Shown: piece after piece, positions 4,950 to 14,250 of the stretch
How the letters are laid out: each line of letters opens with the position of its first letter
Position numbering within the stretch: the stretch's first letter is position 1
Assembly: GCF_018873765.1 (NCBI RefSeq)
Contig: NC_057924.1
Location: 3,720,001-3,784,000, forward strand
From: Telopea speciosissima
Taxonomy: Eukaryota > Streptophyta > Magnoliopsida > Proteales > Proteaceae
Direction: 5' to 3'
Length of the DNA: 64,000 nucleotides
Notes under the pieces: model-generated
What the model was told of the DNA's origin: nothing
The model's database searches: none
What the model saw: the letters and a program-made list of their open reading frames with translations, nothing else
Made by a program: the position numbers and the translations under genes

Positions 4950-5030
4950 TAGTGAAAGCTCGTTGCTACCAGGAGGTCTTGGGTTCAAGCCTCCTAGTTC
5001 ACATCTTCCCTCCCCTTTGGCTTTAAAAAA
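4950..5030 (+). repeat. Possible tRNA-derived SINE remnant
   Basis: The sequence GGGTTCAAGCCTCC resembles an RNA polymerase III B box (GGTTCRANNCC). It is followed about 35 bases later by an A-run (5023-5032). A recognisable A box is not clear upstream, so this is a weak call. Confidence 0.3.
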
Positions 5031-5599
5031 AAAATTTAATTAGAGAAGTAACTTTGCATCTTATTGCAGAAGTTGGCTTGTTGTAGATAAATAGGTTTGG
5101 GCTTGGATTATGTTTCCCTCTTAGACCTTGGTTTGGGCTTGACCACCTAGCCCGGTTGATGCCTAGATTTAGCCTTTGCCCTATATATAAAATTTCAAAG
5201 GGTTTATTTAATTTTAACTCGGGTTTTTTTTTTTTTGTAGAAATAATGATCAATTTTATTAAGATCATCGGATGAAGAATGTGTTGTAGTATTTATTCAT
5301 AATTACCACAATGCCCTTGTAGATATTCTCTTCCATTTTGGAAAGACCAAAATGCCCTCATCTTCCCCAAATCTCACCCAAAACTCTGCCTGACCTCTAA
5401 TGTCCTGAACCGTCACCCTCCCAACTCTCACCCATGACTCCAGACCAGCCCTCACTGTCAGCGTTATTCCACTAACATCGTGAAATGTAATGCCAATCTT
5501 CTGTGCTCTAGAATCGACTCGAAATCTCTGGTTCCCTTACAACTAAATTTACCTCTCTCCATGCTCAAATCTTAGTATTCAATATTTCAACTTTCGGCC

Positions 5600-5700
5600 A
5601 TGGTAAAAACCATTTTGGTCACCGATGGTACTGGATATATCGGCAGCCACACGGTTCTTTAGCTTTTGTTCATTTCGAGTTGTGGCTTCGAAACTATAAA
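5600..5700 (+). pseudogene. UDP-glucose 4-epimerase first-exon fragment
   Basis: From the ATG at 5600 the frame reads MVKTILVTDGTGYIGSHTVL and then hits a TAG at 5660-5662, after which similarity fades. UDP-glucose 4-epimerases (UGE/GALE, interconverting UDP-glucose and UDP-galactose in the cytosol) begin with the same NAD-binding segment, GxxGYIGSHTV followed by QLL. The stop sits exactly where the family has Gln, so a single CAG to TAG change would explain it. The second Gly of the usual GGAGYIG is also changed (DGTGYIG). Only this N-terminal stretch is present, so it is a relic and not a gene. Confidence 0.6.
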
Positions 5701-6132
5701 TTTGCAGCACTCTAGATGGCTCTAACAGTAGCCAATATGGATAGGATTTCGATCCGAGTAAAATCAAGGTCCATATGCACAAAATATGAGATCATTCGGA
5801 GAGGGAGGGTGGGGATCGGGCTCCTCAGGGCTTCCGTCCGACGCCCTGCTGCCCCAATACATCACCCGCAGAAAGAAAAAAAGAAATGCTCGCAAAGGTA
5901 ATTCCATGGCAATCAAAATCGATATGAGATCTATTAAAATTAATATAAGAAAACGAAGAACAAACTATTAACAACCAACTATTGAAACTAATGTAGGACA
6001 ACGAAGAATATAGAAGAAACCATTAACAACCACTCTGCAGAAAATACCTAATAAGATCAAACCCTTAAACTAAGAAGTAAGAACACAACAAAAACCCAAC
6101 TACCGAGATTAAACACCCAAATACCTAATCGG

Positions 6133-7205
6133 TTAATCCTTCTTGTTCAACATAAGATGGATTAAGCCCTCTCCCGATTTGGTTATTACGTGGAATTTGT
6201 TGTTGTTCACATTCACTTTACTGTAATTGTAGTTCACCAAATCCACATCAATCAGATTCTCGTCTTAAATATTGTAAGTATGTTCAAAACATGAGAACAT
6301 TTACAGTTTAAAATGTTAGAATATTAATATCACAAAAAATTACAAAAAGTAATGAGTATAACTTTAAAAGATTTTAATATTCTAACATTTTGAACTATAA
6401 ATGTTCTCACGTTTTGAACGTACTTACAATAATTTTTTAACGTATTTTTCATATGATATTAATATTCTAACGTTTTGAACTATAAATGTTCTTATGTTTT
6501 AAACATGCTTATAATATATTTTTTTTAAATTATTGTAAGGACGTTCAAAACGTGAGAATATTTATAGTTCAAAACGTTAAAAAATTATCTTTTAAGATTA
6601 TATTCATTACTTTTTTGTATTTTTCATATGATATTAATATTTTAACATTTTGAACTAGAAATGTTCTTATATTTTGAACGTACTTACAATATGATATTAA
6701 TATTCTAGCATTTTGAAATATATTATAAATACGTTCAAAACATAAGAGTATTTATAGTCTAAATGTTAGAATATTAATATTATATAAAAAAAATATAAAA
6801 AATAATGAATATAATCTTAAAAGATATTAATATTCTAACGTTTTGAACTATAAACGTTTATTAATATTCAATCAGGTTCTCATCTTCTCTAACTGTCATC
6901 GAAGTATTCTTCGTGATCTCATCATTTCAGATTTGTCTGGTAACTTCATTCTCGTCACTGGGACACTATCAAGTGGTTGTAATTCTTCCGATCATGCTTA
7001 GAGTAGCAGCTACAACTGGGATACCAATTGCAATAACAAACATTACACTTAAAACAAAAATAACAACAAATTGAAATAAGGTAAAAGTAGAATTACACTT
7101 ATGACTCCCAAACACTTTTTCGTTCGGAATATAGATTAATAGGGACTGTGGCTTCGGAGATCGAGTTCTGGAATATCAGAATCGACAACCGAGAGTAAAC
7201 GCACC
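6133..7205 (-). pseudogene. Unrecognised membrane-protein gene, copy 1 (interrupted by MITEs)
   Basis: Two minus-strand pieces of one gene lie at 6868-7205 and 6133-6266, separated by a 600-bp MITE cluster. The first piece corresponds to the membrane-segment region seen better in copies 2 and 3. The second gives the C-terminus: LIDVDLVNYNYSKVNVNNNK, then about 20 residues ending LMLNKKD and a stop at 6135-6133. The 17-bp sequence at the left MITE junction (AATCAGATTCTCGTCTT) recurs with two differences at the right junction. This copy carries in-frame stops (for example after the MQI motif seen in the other copies) and is not functional as it stands. I do not recognise the family. Confidence 0.55.
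6268..6866. repeat. AT-rich palindromic MITE cluster 1
   Basis: The cluster is made of a roughly 165-bp, almost fully self-complementary unit. It runs from TTGTAAGTACGTTCAAAACG inward through GTTAGAATATTAATATCATA to its inverted copy ending CGTACTTACAA. A nearly complete unit spans 6268-6432. Nested or partial units fill the rest, with outward arms also at 6525-6700 and 6715-6850. No transposase is encoded. The superfamily is uncertain. Confidence 0.85.
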
Positions 7206-7499
7206 AAAGCGTTAGAATATTAATATCATATGAAAAATAAAAAAAAATAATGAGTATAATCTTTAAAGATATTAATATTAATCTTTTAACATTTTGAACT
7301 ATAAATGTTCTCACTGAACGTACTTTTAATATTTAAATGTTTTGAATGTACTTGTAAAAAAATATTGTAAGTACGTTCAAAAAGTTAGAATATTAATATT
7401 TTTTAAGATTATAATCTTTACTTTTTGTAATTTTCATATAATATTATATTTTAATGTTTTGAACTATAAATGTTCTCACGTTTTGAACTTACTTACAAT
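7206..7499. repeat. AT-rich palindromic MITE cluster 2
   Basis: Same unit as at 6268-6866. It consists of partial palindromes joined together, with CGTTCAAAA and TTTTGAACG arms facing each other several times. It interrupts copy 1 of the membrane-protein gene at its right side. Confidence 0.8.
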
Positions 7500-8417
7500 A
7501 TTTTTGAAACTTTACATGTTTTCAAAGATAAATTCCTCATTTCTTTCATCTAGCTGCAACACCACCTTAATTTCTCTCCTAAATCTTACAGTCCGTCTAA
7601 AAATATGTTAGGAAGAATTTTAGTTTATATTTTCATATTTAAAAAAATAATTTAAATATTTAAAAACACATGACATACAATATATATCAAGTAGACATAA
7701 TGCTTTAACAATTTAGAATGATAAAGAATAAAAACATGACAAACAGAACACATAAAATGTAGCATCGTTATATAACACAGAAAAAGACACTGCATTTGGT
7801 ACTGATGTATACTTAGATAGTGTCAATCATGAAAAATGATACTAAAGATCATATGCAAAGAAAATAGGAAAAGAAGTTGCCTTGTACATGTGGTGAGAAT
7901 GAAAACCCACTGTTACAGGGATGGTAATGTCCCAGCGGATGCTCTTGCAAATCGAGCAGCTAACCTTAAAATTTTAGAGAAGTGGAACGACTCTCCAAAC
8001 TTCATTGCCCATGCGACTTCTTGGGAACCTCTAGGTAGACCATACTATCGATTCTTCTGATATGTAGTGAGGGTATCATGCCAGAACTTTTATGTTTGTA
8101 ATTGACTGATGACGCTTTTGAGTTTGAGCATCTGAATTTCTTTTCTTTTTGTACCTTTCTTAATACCATCAATACATACTTGCTAATCTTCTAGCAAAAA
8201 AAAAGAAAACAATAGTCCCACCAAGTATTTTATAGTATAGATTAATTCATGAATTTTAGAAACAAAAAAAAAGAAGAAAGAAAAGGCTTGGTAAAATAAA
8301 TAATAAGAGTAAAGTATGAATAATGGAATGGCTTATCATCCATCCTTGTCAGTTTGTCCTTTGTAAGGAAATACATAAAATCTTCATCAATCAATCAAGG
8401 ATGTTGGATCTATTAAA
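7500..8417. repeat. Left arm of a large inverted duplication
   Basis: This arm is the inverted counterpart of 8783-9384. Shared blocks include ACATGACATACAATATATAT, TGCTTTAACAATTTAGAATG, the TTGCCTTGTACATGTGGTGAG block and, innermost, GATTGATGAAGATTTTATG read in opposite senses. The left arm is longer by about 300 bp because a LINE end is inserted at 7907-8204. The two arms surround MITE cluster 3. I find no intact gene in the arm. Confidence 0.85.
7907..8204 (+). mobile_element. 5'-truncated L1-type LINE 3' end
   Basis: The plus strand reads HCYRDGNVPADALANRAANL, the end of a LINE RNase H domain. A TGA at 8058-8060 follows, then about 130 bases of 3' UTR and an A-run ending at 8204. GAAAAC occurs at 7901-7906 and 8205-8210 and probably marks a short target duplication. 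The opposite arm of the inverted duplication lacks this piece and so shows the empty site. The insertion is therefore younger than the inverted duplication. Confidence 0.85.
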
Positions 8418-8782
8418 TATTGTAAGTACGTTCAAAACCTGAGAACATTTATAATTCAAAACGTTAAAATATTAATATTAATATCTTTTAAGATTATACT
8501 CATTACGTTTTGTATTTTTCATATGAAATTAATATTCTAATATTTGAAACTATAAATGTTTTTACGTTTTAAATGTACTTACAATATAATATTAATATTT
8601 TAACATTTTGAATTATATTGTAAGTACGTTCAAAACGTAAAAACATTTGTAGTTTCAAACATTAGAATATTAATTTTATATGAAAAATACAAAACATAAT
8701 GAGTATAATCTTAAAAGATATTAATATAAATATTATAACATTTTAAATTATAAATTCTCACGTTTTGAACTTACTTACAATA
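8418..8782. repeat. AT-rich palindromic MITE cluster 3 (centre of inverted duplication)
   Basis: At least two palindromic units lie between the arms of the inverted duplication. The outermost ATATTGTAAGTACGTTC (8417 side) and its inverse ending ACTTACAATATTT (8782 side) meet the arms directly. Confidence 0.8.
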
Positions 8783-9384
8783 TTTAACAGACCCAACATC
8801 CTTGATTGATTGATGAAGATTTTATGTCATTTTCTTACAAAGGACAAACTGACAAGGATGGATGGTAAGCCCTTCCATTATTCATACTTCACTCTTACTG
8901 TTTGTTTTACTAAGCCTTTTTTTTCTTTTTCTAAAATTCATGAATTAATCTATACTATAAAATACTTGGTGAGGCTGTGATTTTCTTTCTCACCACATGT
9001 ACAAGGCAACTTCTTTTCCCATCTTCTTTGCATACGATCTTCAGTATCCTTCTTCATGATTAACACTATCTAAGTATACATCAGTTCCAAATGCAGTGTC
9101 TTTTTCTGTGATATATAACGATGCTATATTTTTTGTGTTCTGTTTGTCATATTTTTATTCTCTGCCATTCTAAATTGTTAAAGCATTATGTCTACTTGAT
9201 ATATATTGTATGTCATGTGTTTTTAAAGATTTAAATTATTCTTTTAAATATGAAAATCTAAACCAAAATTCTACCCAACATATCTTCAAACGGGTTGTAA
9301 AATTTAGGAGAGAAACTAAGGTAGTATTGTAGCTAGATGAAAGAAAAGAGGAATTTATTTTTGAAAACATGTAAAGTTTAAAAA
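8783..9384. repeat. Right arm of the large inverted duplication
   Basis: Inverted counterpart of 7500-8417 without the LINE insertion. Divergence between arms is visible (scattered substitutions and small indels), so the duplication is not recent. Adjacent MITE sequence starts at 9385. Confidence 0.85.
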
Positions 9385-9873
9385 AATATTGTAAGTATAT
9401 TCAAAACGTGAGAACATGTATAGTTCAAAATGTTAGAATATAATATCATATGAAAAATACAAAAAATAATGAGTATAATCTTACAAAATATTAATATTCT
9501 AACGTTTTAAACGTACTAACAACATTTTTTTACAAGTACGTTCAAAACGTTTAAATATTAAAAGTACTTACAAAACGTGGGAACATTTATAATTCAAAAT
9601 GTTAGAATATTAATATTAATATCTTTTAAGATTATACTCATTACTTTTGTATTGTTCATATGACAATAATATTCTAACGTTTGAACTATATATGTTCTCA
9701 CGTTTTGTAAGTATGTTTAAAATTTGAGAATATTTATAGTTCAAAACGTTATAATATTAATATTTTTTAAGATTATATTATTATTTTTTGTATTTTTCAT
9801 ATGATATTAATATTCTAACGTTTTGAACTATAAGTTTATAACTATTCTCACGTTTTGAACATACTAATAATAT
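9385..9873. repeat. AT-rich palindromic MITE cluster 4
   Basis: Several joined units of the same palindromic MITE, with arms at 9388-9530, 9535-9700 and 9710-9870. The right edge abuts copy 2 of the membrane-protein gene at TAGTTCACCAAATCCACATC. Confidence 0.8.
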
Positions 9874-10540
9874 TTAGTTCACCAAATCCACATCAATCAG
9901 ATTCTCGTCTTCTCAACCTGTCACCGAAGTATTTTTTGTGATCTCATCATTCTAGATTTGCATGGTAACTTCATTTTCATTACTGAGACAGTCCCAAGTG
10001 ACCGTAATTCTTTCGACCATACTTGGAGTAGCAGTTATAACTGGGATACCAACCGCAATAACAAACATTACACTTAAAACTAAAATAACAACATTTGGAA
10101 ATAAAGAAAAAGTAGAACTACACTTACGACTCCCAAACACTTTTTCGTTCTGAATATAGATTGGCAGGGACTGTGGCTTCGGGGATCGAGTTCTAGAATA
10201 CCAGAATCGACGATCAGGAGTAAACGCGCTGATGATCGAAAGACTTGCTTCAGACTCTAGTAGAACGTCATCATCACCATAGCTGCAGAGCTTTGAGCTT
10301 TGAGGAATTCTTTATAACAAAATGATTTGGGGGTTCTTTATAACAGAAAACTTTAGGAGCAGACGCAACATCTTATTTATAGGCAAAAGTACCTTCTAAA
10401 AAAATATCCTTAAAAAATTTGATTTTCTTTTGGGTAAAAGGTTTGTTGGTCTGATTTGACCACAATATGATAAACAAAATCCAATTTTCGACCGGACAAA
10501 TGAGAGAATGTATATCTAATCATAATTTCTGAGGTTAATA
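9874..10540 (-). pseudogene. Unrecognised membrane-protein gene, copy 2
   Basis: The minus strand reads an open stretch with DDDVLLESEASLS, AFTPDRRFWYSRTRSPKPQ and IQNEKVFGSRK. A hydrophobic helix follows (VVILVLSVMFVIAVGIPVI), then MVERITVTWDCLSNENEVTM, QI and a stop. The layout suggests a single-pass membrane protein with a basic cytosolic N-terminal part. Downstream the frame has further stops before a LIDVDLVN motif shared with copy 1. Upstream sequence to 10540 is shared with copy 3 and includes an ATTCTTTATAACA tract and a TTTATAGG box that may be an old promoter. I cannot name the family. Confidence 0.55.
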
Positions 10541-11401
10541 TCTTGTAAGATTATACTCACTATTTTTTATATTTTTCATATGATATTAATATTCTAACGT
10601 TTTGAACTATAAATGTTCTCACATTTTGAACGTAATTACAACATGATATTAATATTCTAACGTTTGAAACTATAAATGTTCTTACGTTTTGAACGTACTT
10701 ACAATATAGTTCAAAATATTAGAATATTAATAACATATGAAAAATATAAAAAATAATGAGTATAATCTTAAAATATATTAATATTCTAATGTTTTGAACT
10801 ATAAATGTTCTTACGTTTTGAACGTACTCATAATTATGAGTACGTTCAAAACGTAAGAACATTTATAATTCAAAACATTAGAATATTAATATCATATAAA
10901 AAATACAAAAAATAATGAGTATAATCTTAAAAGATATTAATATTATTATTCTAACGTTTTGAATTATAAATGTTCTCATGTTTTGAATGTACTTACAATA
11001 TTTAAAAATATATATATTGTAAGTACGTTCAAAACGTGAGAACATTTATAGTTCAAAACGTTAGAATATTAATATCATATAAAAAATACAAAAAATAATG
11101 AATATTTTATATTTTTTATATGATATTAATATTTGAACGTTTTGAACTATAAATGTTCTCACGTTTTGTAAGTACGTTCAAAATGTGAGAACATTTATAA
11201 TTTAAAATGTTAGAATAATAATATTAATACTCATTACTTTTTGTATTTTTCATATGATATTAATATTCTAACGTTTTGAACTATAAATGTTCTCACGTTC
11301 AAAACGTTAGAATATTAAAATCTTTTAAGATTATACTCATTATTTTTTGTATTTTTCATATGATATTAATATTCTAACGTTTTGAACGTACTTACAATAT
11401 C
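10541..11401. repeat. AT-rich palindromic MITE cluster 5 (largest)
   Basis: About 860 bp of concatenated palindromic MITE units, some very similar to each other (for example 11013-11100, 11120-11220 and 11240-11300). The right edge again ends CGTACTTACAATAT and abuts the TAGTTCACCAAATCCACATC sequence, here copy 3 of the gene. Confidence 0.85.
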
Positions 11402-12105
11402 TAGTTCACCAAATCCACATCAATCAGGTTCTCGTATTCTCTAACTGCCACCGAAGTGTTCTTCGTAATCTAATCATTCCAGATTTGCATGGTAACTTCA
11501 TTCTCGTTACTGGGACACTCCCAAGTGACCGTAATTCTTTCGACTATGCCCAAAATAGCAGCTATAACTGAGATACCAACTGTAATAACAAACATTACAC
11601 TTAAAACTAAAATAACACCATATTGAAATAAGGGAAAAGTAAAACTACGCTTACAACTCCCAAACACTTTTCCGTTCGAAACATAGATCGACGGGAATTG
11701 TGGTTTCGGGGATCGAGTTCTGGAATATCAGAACCGACGACCCAGAGTAAACACATCGATGATCGAAAGACTTGCTTCAGACTCTAGTGGAACGTCGTCA
11801 TCGCCATAACAGTAGAGCTTCAAGCTTTGAGCTTTGAGATTTGAGGAATTCTTTATAACATAGGGATTTGGGGGAATTCTTTATAACAGAGGGCTTTGAG
11901 AGCAGATGCAATATCTTATTTATAAGGCAAAAGTACCCTACAAAAAAGTACCCTCGAAACTTTTGGGCAAAAGGTTTACTGGTCTAATTTGACCACAATA
12001 TGATAAATGAGGTTTGCCGGTCTGATTTAGCCACAATATGATAAATGAAATCCAATTTTCGATCGGACAAATGAGAGAGCGTATATCTAAGCCTAATTCC
12101 TAAGG
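11402..12105 (-). pseudogene. Unrecognised membrane-protein gene, copy 3
   Basis: Direct repeat of 9874-10540 over about 700 bp. The minus strand keeps the hydrophobic segment (VILVLSVMFVITVGISVIAA) and VERITVTWECPSNENEVTMQ, then IWND and a stop. One codon-level stop present in copy 2 after MQI is absent here, so each copy decayed separately. The 5' side includes a duplicated GACCACAATATGATAAA tract (11990-12045). Its end at about 12105 is the junction with the L1 LINE. Confidence 0.55.
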
Positions 12106-14250
12106 ACATTGGTGCCAAGGCAAATTAAGGTGAGATATTCTTCTTTTTTTTTTTATGGGATCCACCATGAACAGGGAGATTCCTTTGAGCTTTCTACATA
12201 TCTTATTCAACTTATTTGTGGCACATCTCGTCTCCATCAAGAAGAAAATATCTGGATTATTCTGCTTGGAGAGATTTAGTAAAGATCGAATCGTCAAGGG
12301 TCTCCCCAACCCTTGACAATTCAAACTCAAGATTTTTATGATAACCCATGGGGTTGATTTCCCCCAGCCACCATGGGTCCATGTTCTAAAAAATGCAGAT
12401 CATCTTGGATGTTAACTTCCGCCTTCGTCTCTGCTACAACCTCGTTGTGGTTCCTTTTGGCTCTCTTCACTTTGTGCTTGGCCTTGCCTGATTGTTGGGG
12501 TAAAGGTTGTGTGTTGGGTTGTGAAAGGGTAAGGACCCTCAGAGTAACAGATGTGGGGATGTTTGCTCTGTGCTCAATGGTTTGAAGCTCAGTGGTTAAT
12601 CTTTTGGCGGGTAGTATATTATCTCTACACAATGTTTGAAAGTTTTGGATGGGGAATGTTGGTTGGACCGGTGATTGAGCGAGACCCAAGGCTGGGGGGA
12701 GGTCTGGTTGGGTTGGGAAAGGGAGCAGGCCGACAATTGTGGGAGTAAGGAACAGAGAGTATTGGTGAGCTTTGGTTGCTGGTTGCTGGTTGAGTTTGAA
12801 TTGCAAGTATTGTAGCATATGGTTTTACAGGTTTTCTTAGCTATGGTAGTGGGACTGGGTTTGGTGCTGGCCTGTGGTGGAGCACAGGTTTAATTGATGG
12901 TTAAGCACCGTTGTATGAGGGATATTAATGGGATATGGGAATTGATTGATGGGATGGACCGCTAGTGGGGATGTAGACATGGAGGGATTTTGATGAGGCC
13001 AATGATTGCCTAAAAAATAAATGGGATGGGGATTTGGGACTAGGGATTGCTGAAGGCCATTCTCACCAAAAGCAGTAGGCAGGACAAATGGGACAGTGCT
13101 CACAGGTGCAGGTAGACAGGCCTGGGCATTTGTTGTGGTATGCAAGACACTCATTTGCGTTGGTGTACGGTTGTCAAAGCACTGGCTGCCATCCTTACCA
13201 GTCCTCCCCAGCCTTGTGCCGCCAACTGGAATATTCGTTGAAGGGGAAGCCCTTGCCGCTGAAATGGAAGGAGCATGTTCAATCACTCTCGTTAAGGGAG
13301 ATATTCCCTGAATTGATAGCTTGGTAAAGCTTTTGGTCGTTGGGTGCAATGTACTTCTGCAACAGATCCTGGGTCTCCTTGTGACGCCGATCCTCTCAAA
13401 CATATTGTTGCTTCTACTTTCCTCATGGCCTAGTTTTGCGCAGAATAGGGGAAGTTTTTTGTATTTCACCACAACATTGGTTTGGGACCCGTTTCTTCGT
13501 TTCATAGCTATGTTTGTTTGGAGAGGCTTGAGGATGTTGATGGAGACACACATGCGAAGGAAACAGACCCTTTCTCCAAACTGACTACCATCGATCATCA
13601 TCGCCACTTTTGGCTCACCAATCTTTGTCCCCAATTGCAGCGCTAACTGAAGGTCTTGGAGCTCCACTGGGACCTCATGGAGTTGAACCCAGGATACCAC
13701 CCTATCGAACTTCCAATCTTTCGCATCCTTCCAACATTCGAGCATAAGCAGATTTTGGGCCACGGCCTAGGGGCCTTTTGCAAGAACATTCACTAAGTCT
13801 AGCTCATGTTGGAAGTGGAAGGTTTAACTTCTCTCCGAGTAAGGGCACACCTCCATAACTTCTTTGGTGTTCCTGACTTTTACCAGTGCCTCTGTAACGG
13901 CTTGAGGACGATACCTTTTCCCTTCCAAGATATACCCTATAAGTGTATTTTGCCATCCACGAGCAATTCTTTCCTCCACTTTGTCATCGAGCAGGAACTT
14001 GTCCTCATCATCTGATAACTATGCCGTGTTTGAGGGGGAACCAGGTGTTCTTTGCGGCACAGGTCTCGACAAATTGAGATTAGGAGGGTCCATCTCTCTA
14101 GGCAAGGGAAACGAGGGATCAGGCAAAAAGGGAAAAAGCTTTTTGGGGAAATGGGTACCGAGGAGGGCTGGGAGAAAAACAAGCACGAGAAGTGGGAGAA
14201 GACAAAACGGGAAACAAAAAGCTAGGAGATCGGAAGGAGAAGAATAAAGG
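12106..14250 (-). mobile_element. L1-type LINE: ORF1 and start of ORF2, 3' part missing
   Basis: Minus strand. ORF1 is spread over frames between about 14182 and 12336. It holds a DUF4283 nucleic-acid-binding region (WKFDRVVSWVQLHEVPVELQ at 13720-13660), a decayed zinc knuckle (FCAKLGHEES near 13440) and a basic tail (KHKVKRAKRNHNEVV). ORF2 starts near 12333 with KILSLNCQGLGRPLTIRSLL and NPDIFFLMETR, the beginning of the AP-type endonuclease. It stops being recognisable at about 12106. Reverse transcriptase, RNase H and poly(A) tail are absent. LINE insertions usually lose the 5' end, so loss of the 3' end here means later deletion or recombination. Frameshifts and stops show it is dead. Confidence 0.85.

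Follow-up and report, generated by a model that had tools for sequence, protein, structure and literature searches.

Does a short palindromic repeat only insert into a genome, or does it also act as a place at which neighbouring DNA is duplicated? The question is raised by a locus of Telopea speciosissima, contained in a stretch of 64,000 nucleotides (“the window”; C9:3720001-3784000 in an 823-Mb genome of 1287 contigs; positions without a contig label are window positions), in which five clusters of an AT-rich, self-complementary unit are interspersed with an inverted duplication and three copies of a gene fragment. A reading made from the letters alone (the sequence-only reading) had called the unit a miniature inverted-repeat transposable element (MITE) and a recurrent point of duplication; joints of duplications do coincide with units, both in the window and at three of the four multi-unit clusters found elsewhere, and units and duplicated DNA are equally diverged, whereas intact unit ends at joints would fit transposition too. 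With moderate confidence, we regard this rare palindromic repeat as a site that can break, anneal to itself and so seed the duplication of DNA nearby.

Unit, clusters and palindrome in the window

The consensus of the unit, read by eye from the copies in the window, is AT-rich and 159 nt long; an asymmetric core of ~39 nt is flanked by two arms of 60 nt, whose consensus sequences are complementary throughout. One real unit (10834-10998) gives a DNA fold of -37.6 kcal/mol (z = -10.7). The five clusters (Table 1) match the unit over 2562 of the 5134 bases of 6268-11401, and the sequence-only reading was thus right to assign ~2.6 of 5.1 kb to clusters of a single self-complementary unit. The self-comparison and consensus that it had put forward as a check also came out in its favour: besides the consensus, the top self-match of this region scored 1023 bits in inverted and 461 bits in direct orientation, far above the maxima (48 and 34 bits, respectively) of 20 first-order Markov shuffles of the same region.

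The span 7207-9682 is one palindrome, composed of cluster, arm, unit, 21-nt spacer, unit, arm and cluster, with its axis at ~8601 inside cluster 3; that it takes in the outer clusters corrects an earlier note on the locus. The arm parts 7501-7905 and 8981-9385 are 91% complementary, and more arm parts lie closer to the centre. The feature looked for in a fold-back duplication, a spacer bordered by inverted homology, is present in the form of the 21 nt enclosed by mirrored units. If transcribed, 8212-8988 is predicted to give an RNA that would fold on itself almost completely (-464.8 kcal/mol, against a mean of -119.8 for 20 shuffles); no Rfam family reached its gathering score over 5000-13000. 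The arm is a ~600-bp piece of a longer dispersed repeat (~3 kb common to loci L061 and L062, with short frames only), now bounded by units, and the two relatives of the right arm listed in Table 1 (~87% identical) have the matching sites without a unit.

Seven of the ten cluster edges in the window lie at intact unit ends (one of them, the right edge of cluster 5, by the second-best match, the best match stopping 13 nt earlier within the unit), and three are internal; two of the latter form new tandem joints, 7203|7205 and 10534|10535, at 44 and 59 nt inside the unit. The previously proposed order of parts stands in that clusters alternate with arms and gene copies, and is amended in that cluster 1 sits within gene copy 1. 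The seven intact edges fit insertion or transposition as well as breakage. They speak for alternative transposition, in which a transposase would pair the ends of two neighbouring copies and so give rise to composite insertions, duplications and element termini at the joints; the same explanation would suit an arm that is a unit-bounded piece of a longer repeat, and the intact edges include all four between arms and units. We nevertheless consider alternative transposition, though a serious rival, somewhat unlikely: three edges are internal and no transposase footprint was identified, half units at two clusters described below (C683 and C7:36.6 Mb) have several joints on their core side, no source of transposase was seen, though none was systematically sought, and no clear target-site duplication was found by eye at the loci with both unit ends (L053, L056 and L059), where nothing beyond A/T runs is repeated and a TA or short A/T duplication may exist.

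The ends and the number of the units bear on what kind of element this is. Unit-like ends (55 places in the window stretch and the fetched loci) have in common an A-rich run that lies outside TTGTAAG and finishes with TA, and the pair of bases before TTG is mostly TA, with T at 48 and A at 46 of the 55 ends. A joined-flank search for C2:496 kb found unit-free relatives, copia-like by eye; four were fetched (71-77% identical), and since two have 12 nt absent from the filled site and two do not, neither loss nor duplication can be claimed. The joined-flank search at C7:22.05 Mb yielded no empty site. One genome search matched the unit at no fewer than 11 loci and another added C1:68.78 Mb, both counts being lower bounds; at up to three mismatches the reversed control pattern matched more often (129 and 86) than the unit pattern (37 and 33), and a minority of these weaker matches were fetched. 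The unit is thus rare across the genome, unlike MITEs with their high dispersed copy numbers.

MITEs are short, AT-rich and non-coding, with long terminal inverted repeats. The unit shares all of this, but differs by its few copies, by much partial or concatenated material and by the lack of a clear target-site duplication, and “MITE” is therefore retained as a description of shape, its class not being established. In a literature search of partial coverage (titles and abstract openings), no description of this palindromic unit was found. Two units of a related palindrome are present at C11:34.198 Mb (L052), with different ends (TATTCTAGGTATAG) and an interior partly common with the main unit.

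Other clusters, single units and joint divergence

Four other multi-unit clusters were found, at C7:28.31 Mb, C7:36.6 Mb and C8:4.53 Mb and on contig C683, the related-family pair at C11:34.2 Mb being set aside from this comparison. Three of them (C7:28.31 Mb, C7:36.6 Mb and C683) lie at the joints of large duplications, inverted or tandem, whose DNA is unrelated, and at all three places where an inverted duplication was found (the window, C7:28.31 and C7:36.6 Mb) a unit lies at its centre or inner edge.

The structure at C7:28.31 Mb (L053, C7:28311000-28320900) is an inverted duplication of ~2.2-2.4 kb, whose spacer of 934 bp has a scrap of the unit at its end; the clusters of the structure, one with ~54-bp tandem sub-repeats, enclose captured DNA, and its outermost edges are unit ends. 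Within the spacer and arm DNA an open stretch (L053 4533-5054, on a chromosome-size contig) matches type B DNA polymerase, organellar and viral (PF03175, E = 2.1e-36), and the surrounding 2.8 kb has 84%-identical relatives on C12, C109 and C749; by these matches, the captured DNA is probably of organelle linear-plasmid origin. This structure is probably not a simple copy of an inverted order already present, as the two copies on C109 face each other by the ends opposite to those that do so here. Long inverted ends with sub-repeats around a variable middle, as in foldback elements, are seen here and partly in the window, and a foldback-type transposon family, in which such composites with their captured middles would move as one element, could explain them. 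We take this rival seriously but find it improbable, because the structure as a whole lacks the 8-10-bp target-site duplication that copies of the foldback element Tetris show (its outer flanks differ beyond A/T runs), no composite was found twice as the same insertion, and the loci are few. A 93-column direct repeat (L053 1726-1818 and 8405-8489; 78% identical) lies 46-92 bp outside the structure.

At C7:36.6 Mb, inverted arms of ~1.75 kb, with inner ends in units or 8 bp from them, stand 13 kb apart, and the interior contains long terminal repeat (LTR)-retrotransposon domains (reverse transcriptase, RNase H and integrase). C683 carries a segment of ~800 bp in four tandem copies with unit halves between them. 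There is no large duplication at C8:4.53 Mb, where flank and unit end are repeated in tandem at 59-bp spacing (53/58 identical). The case that the sequence-only reading had named against itself, in which the clusters would be mere satellite arrays with no duplication beside them, does not apply at C7:28.31 Mb, C7:36.6 Mb or C683, and C8:4.53 Mb has the 59-bp tandem repeat only. A plain satellite is disfavoured for three of these four clusters, the spacers being low-copy DNA. The six single or half-unit loci fetched (L051, L056, L057, L059, L060 and L069) have no duplication that brackets the unit; small repeats of 37-111 bp are present in other parts of the fetched stretch at L059, L060 and L069.

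The claim that clusters fall at the junctions of other repeats could be put to a count. Among 23 duplication end points, picked by hand from BLAST blocks (15 in the window, four in L053 and four at C7:36.6 Mb; C683 and C8:4.53 Mb excluded), 17 lie in a unit or at most 15 bp from one and 16 within 5 bp, against a null mean of 5.5, and none of 20000 random shifts of the units reached 17; the end points are mutually non-independent, and two of those at C7:36.6 Mb are close to the ends of the fetched stretch. Taken locus by locus, the fraction of shifts reaching the observed count is 0.023 for the window, 0.0045 for C7:28.31 Mb and 0.0054 for C7:36.6 Mb. The count supports the claim.

The strongest test that we made is that of divergence. 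In the window palindrome, identity is 89.4% for the outer clusters, 91.4% for the outer and 92.6% for the inner arm parts, and 93.2% for the central units, with overlapping intervals. Units and arms are 90.8% and 91.6% identical at C7:28.31 Mb, and 94.7% and 93.9% at C7:36.6 Mb; on C683 the units show 91.9 and 93.7% (two comparisons) and the 800-bp part 90.0-92.1% (six comparisons). Units and captured DNA being equally diverged, they were most likely duplicated together.

Table 1. Features of the window around the five unit clusters, in order of position.
Feature	Position	Strand	Remarks
Gene copy 1, 3' part beside cluster 1	6230..6266	-	C-terminal reading frame continues below 6230
18-bp imperfect direct repeat (16/18) flanking cluster 1 inside gene copy 1	6249..6266 and 6869-6886	.	
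Unit cluster 1	6268..6867	.	Inside gene copy 1; intact unit end on the left, internal edge (31 nt inside unit) on the right
Gene copy 1, rest	6868..7203	-	Has stops
Unit cluster 2	7205..7500	.	Outer left end of palindrome; left edge internal (44 nt into unit), right edge a unit end
Left palindrome arm	7501..8412	+	Broken by LINE-like fragment
5'-truncated LINE-like insertion in left arm	7905..8205 (approx.)	+	By eye, an RNase H-like tail (HCYRDGNVPADALANRA); 3' end A-rich
Unit cluster 3	8413..8787	.	Two mirror-image units, 21-nt spacer at palindrome axis; outer edges are unit ends
Right palindrome arm	8788..9385	-	Relatives at C11:48.066 Mb and C3:63.662 Mb
Unit cluster 4	9386..9876	.	9386-9682 mirrors cluster 2; both edges are unit ends
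Gene copy 2	9877..10534	-	Cut after residues DLVN at unit edge; has stops
Unit cluster 5	10535..11401	.	Left edge internal (59 nt into unit); right edge a unit end by second-best match
Gene copy 3	11402..12105	-	Cut at same place as copy 2; has stops

Gene copies and the origin of the duplications

The gene fragment is present in triplicate, as the sequence-only reading had it, in three broken copies on the minus strand, each with stops in the frame of its family. No Pfam family scored above cut-off for the fragments (two frames) or for one relative at C9:37.59 Mb. Copies 2 and 3 are cut by a unit edge at the same residue, and the joint of unit and gene thus probably predates their duplication. 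The gene copies differ from each other by 14-16% and the palindrome arms by 7-9%, so that the triplication appears to be older than the palindrome, if rates were similar.

The same family occurs in tandem at C9:3.91 and 37.59 Mb, where our searches found no unit, and the further claim that the unit caused the triplication is accordingly not established. These arrays (C9:3.909-3.919 Mb and 37.586-37.599 Mb; L065-L068) encode small putative membrane-anchored proteins related to the gene copies. They would agree with ordinary MITE insertions and an independent tandem duplication in a gene family prone to duplicate, with the coincidence at junctions incidental, and so would the six single or half-unit loci that lack a bracketing duplication. 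We regard such a coincidence as very improbable given the equal divergence of units and arms, the joint that gene copies 2 and 3 have in common, the recurrence with unrelated DNA at other loci and the excess of end points at units.

Several neighbouring remains complete the picture of the locus. On the minus strand, 12100-13766 contains LINE-type remains, with endonuclease and DUF4283 matches that are weak and both below the curated cut-off, and the LINE-like insertion in the left arm (7905-8205) has no Pfam match at E <= 0.01; remains of both LTR-retrotransposon and LINE type are present. A short frame at 5600-5659, MVKTILVTDGTGYIGSHTVL, followed by a stop, presumably resembles the start of UDP-glucose 4-epimerase.

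The anatomy described above, with joints at units and with unit and flank duplicated jointly, would follow if a unit hairpin or cruciform extruded and then broke. The resected end could anneal to a nearby inverted unit, folding back, and be copied, which would give an inverted duplication with units at its axis and ends, as in the palindrome 7207-9682 and at C7:28.31 Mb. A break within a unit, if its end were ligated to an adjacent segment at the far side, would instead yield a tandem duplication with units at its joints, and unequal exchange between units is another possible route to this outcome (the gene copies of the window; C683). Hairpin breakage, priming by fold-back and the order of events are all parts of this model that we infer. 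Internal joints fit breakage in or near a hairpin, and intact ends fit insertion or the action of a transposase; for this reason we place fold-back with end-joining first and alternative transposition second.

Several observations weigh against fold-back duplication seeded by the palindrome. No breakage as such was observed, and insertion or transposition accounts better for the four intact edges between arms and units. For the C7:28.31 Mb spacer, inverted homology at the edge is not established, and C109 has an inverted pair of the same plasmid-like DNA at which no unit was found, joined by the opposite ends. C683 and C7:36.6 Mb have sequence in common and may represent one family of events; the contrast between clusters and single units is partly circular, clusters being multi-copy by definition. 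To these are added the arrays of the gene family in which the searches found no unit, and the end-point result for the window by itself, which comes from picked and non-independent points.

A broader proposal, which we make tentatively and think doubtful, is that one endogenous palindrome family serves as a recurrent amplifier, its clusters capturing unrelated DNA and making both inverted and tandem duplications of it. The captured DNA would then include a dispersed repeat, organelle-plasmid-like polymerase DNA and small genes. If the proposal is true, amplifier loci could be sources of hairpin RNA and of further copies of genes.

Comparison with known systems

Foldback elements have terminal inverted repeats with internal tandem repeats and variable middles, and copies of Tetris in Drosophila virilis carry target-site duplications of 8-10 bp (PMC4079207). 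The structures described here have in common with Tetris the long inverted ends, internal tandem sub-repeats and variable middle; they differ in that no such target-site duplication was seen around C7:28.31 and that the middles are unrelated host or plasmid-like DNA.

In maize, alternative transposition of Ac/Ds gives composite insertions (PMC4270019), and Ac/Ds element ends lie at the joints of segmental duplications, namely composite insertions and tandem direct duplications (PMC4270019; PMC3744419). Element ends at duplication joints are common to both systems, but here no transposase and no clear target-site duplication were seen, and several joints lie inside the element.

Another likeness is to the fold-back inverted duplications of the human germline and of yeast, in which inverted copies are likewise combined with a spacer bordered by inverted homology. 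Such spacers are reported for human fold-back junctions, and of 21 that were sequenced, three had been seeded by LINE or SINE copies facing opposite ways (PMC3907307). In single-stranded DNA, inverted repeats can fold back even when they are spaced and diverged (PMC10164571). The present case differs from these systems in that no terminal deletion or dicentric is implied, in that the mechanism is deduced from anatomy, and in that several loci of a single genome share the same rare palindromic family, with arms of ~1-2.4 kb. Fold-back duplication is already known from rearrangements in yeast and humans. A rare family at the joints of several inverted and tandem duplications within one genome would make the seeding of gene duplication and of hairpin-RNA loci by palindromes directly testable, through comparison of individuals or related species.

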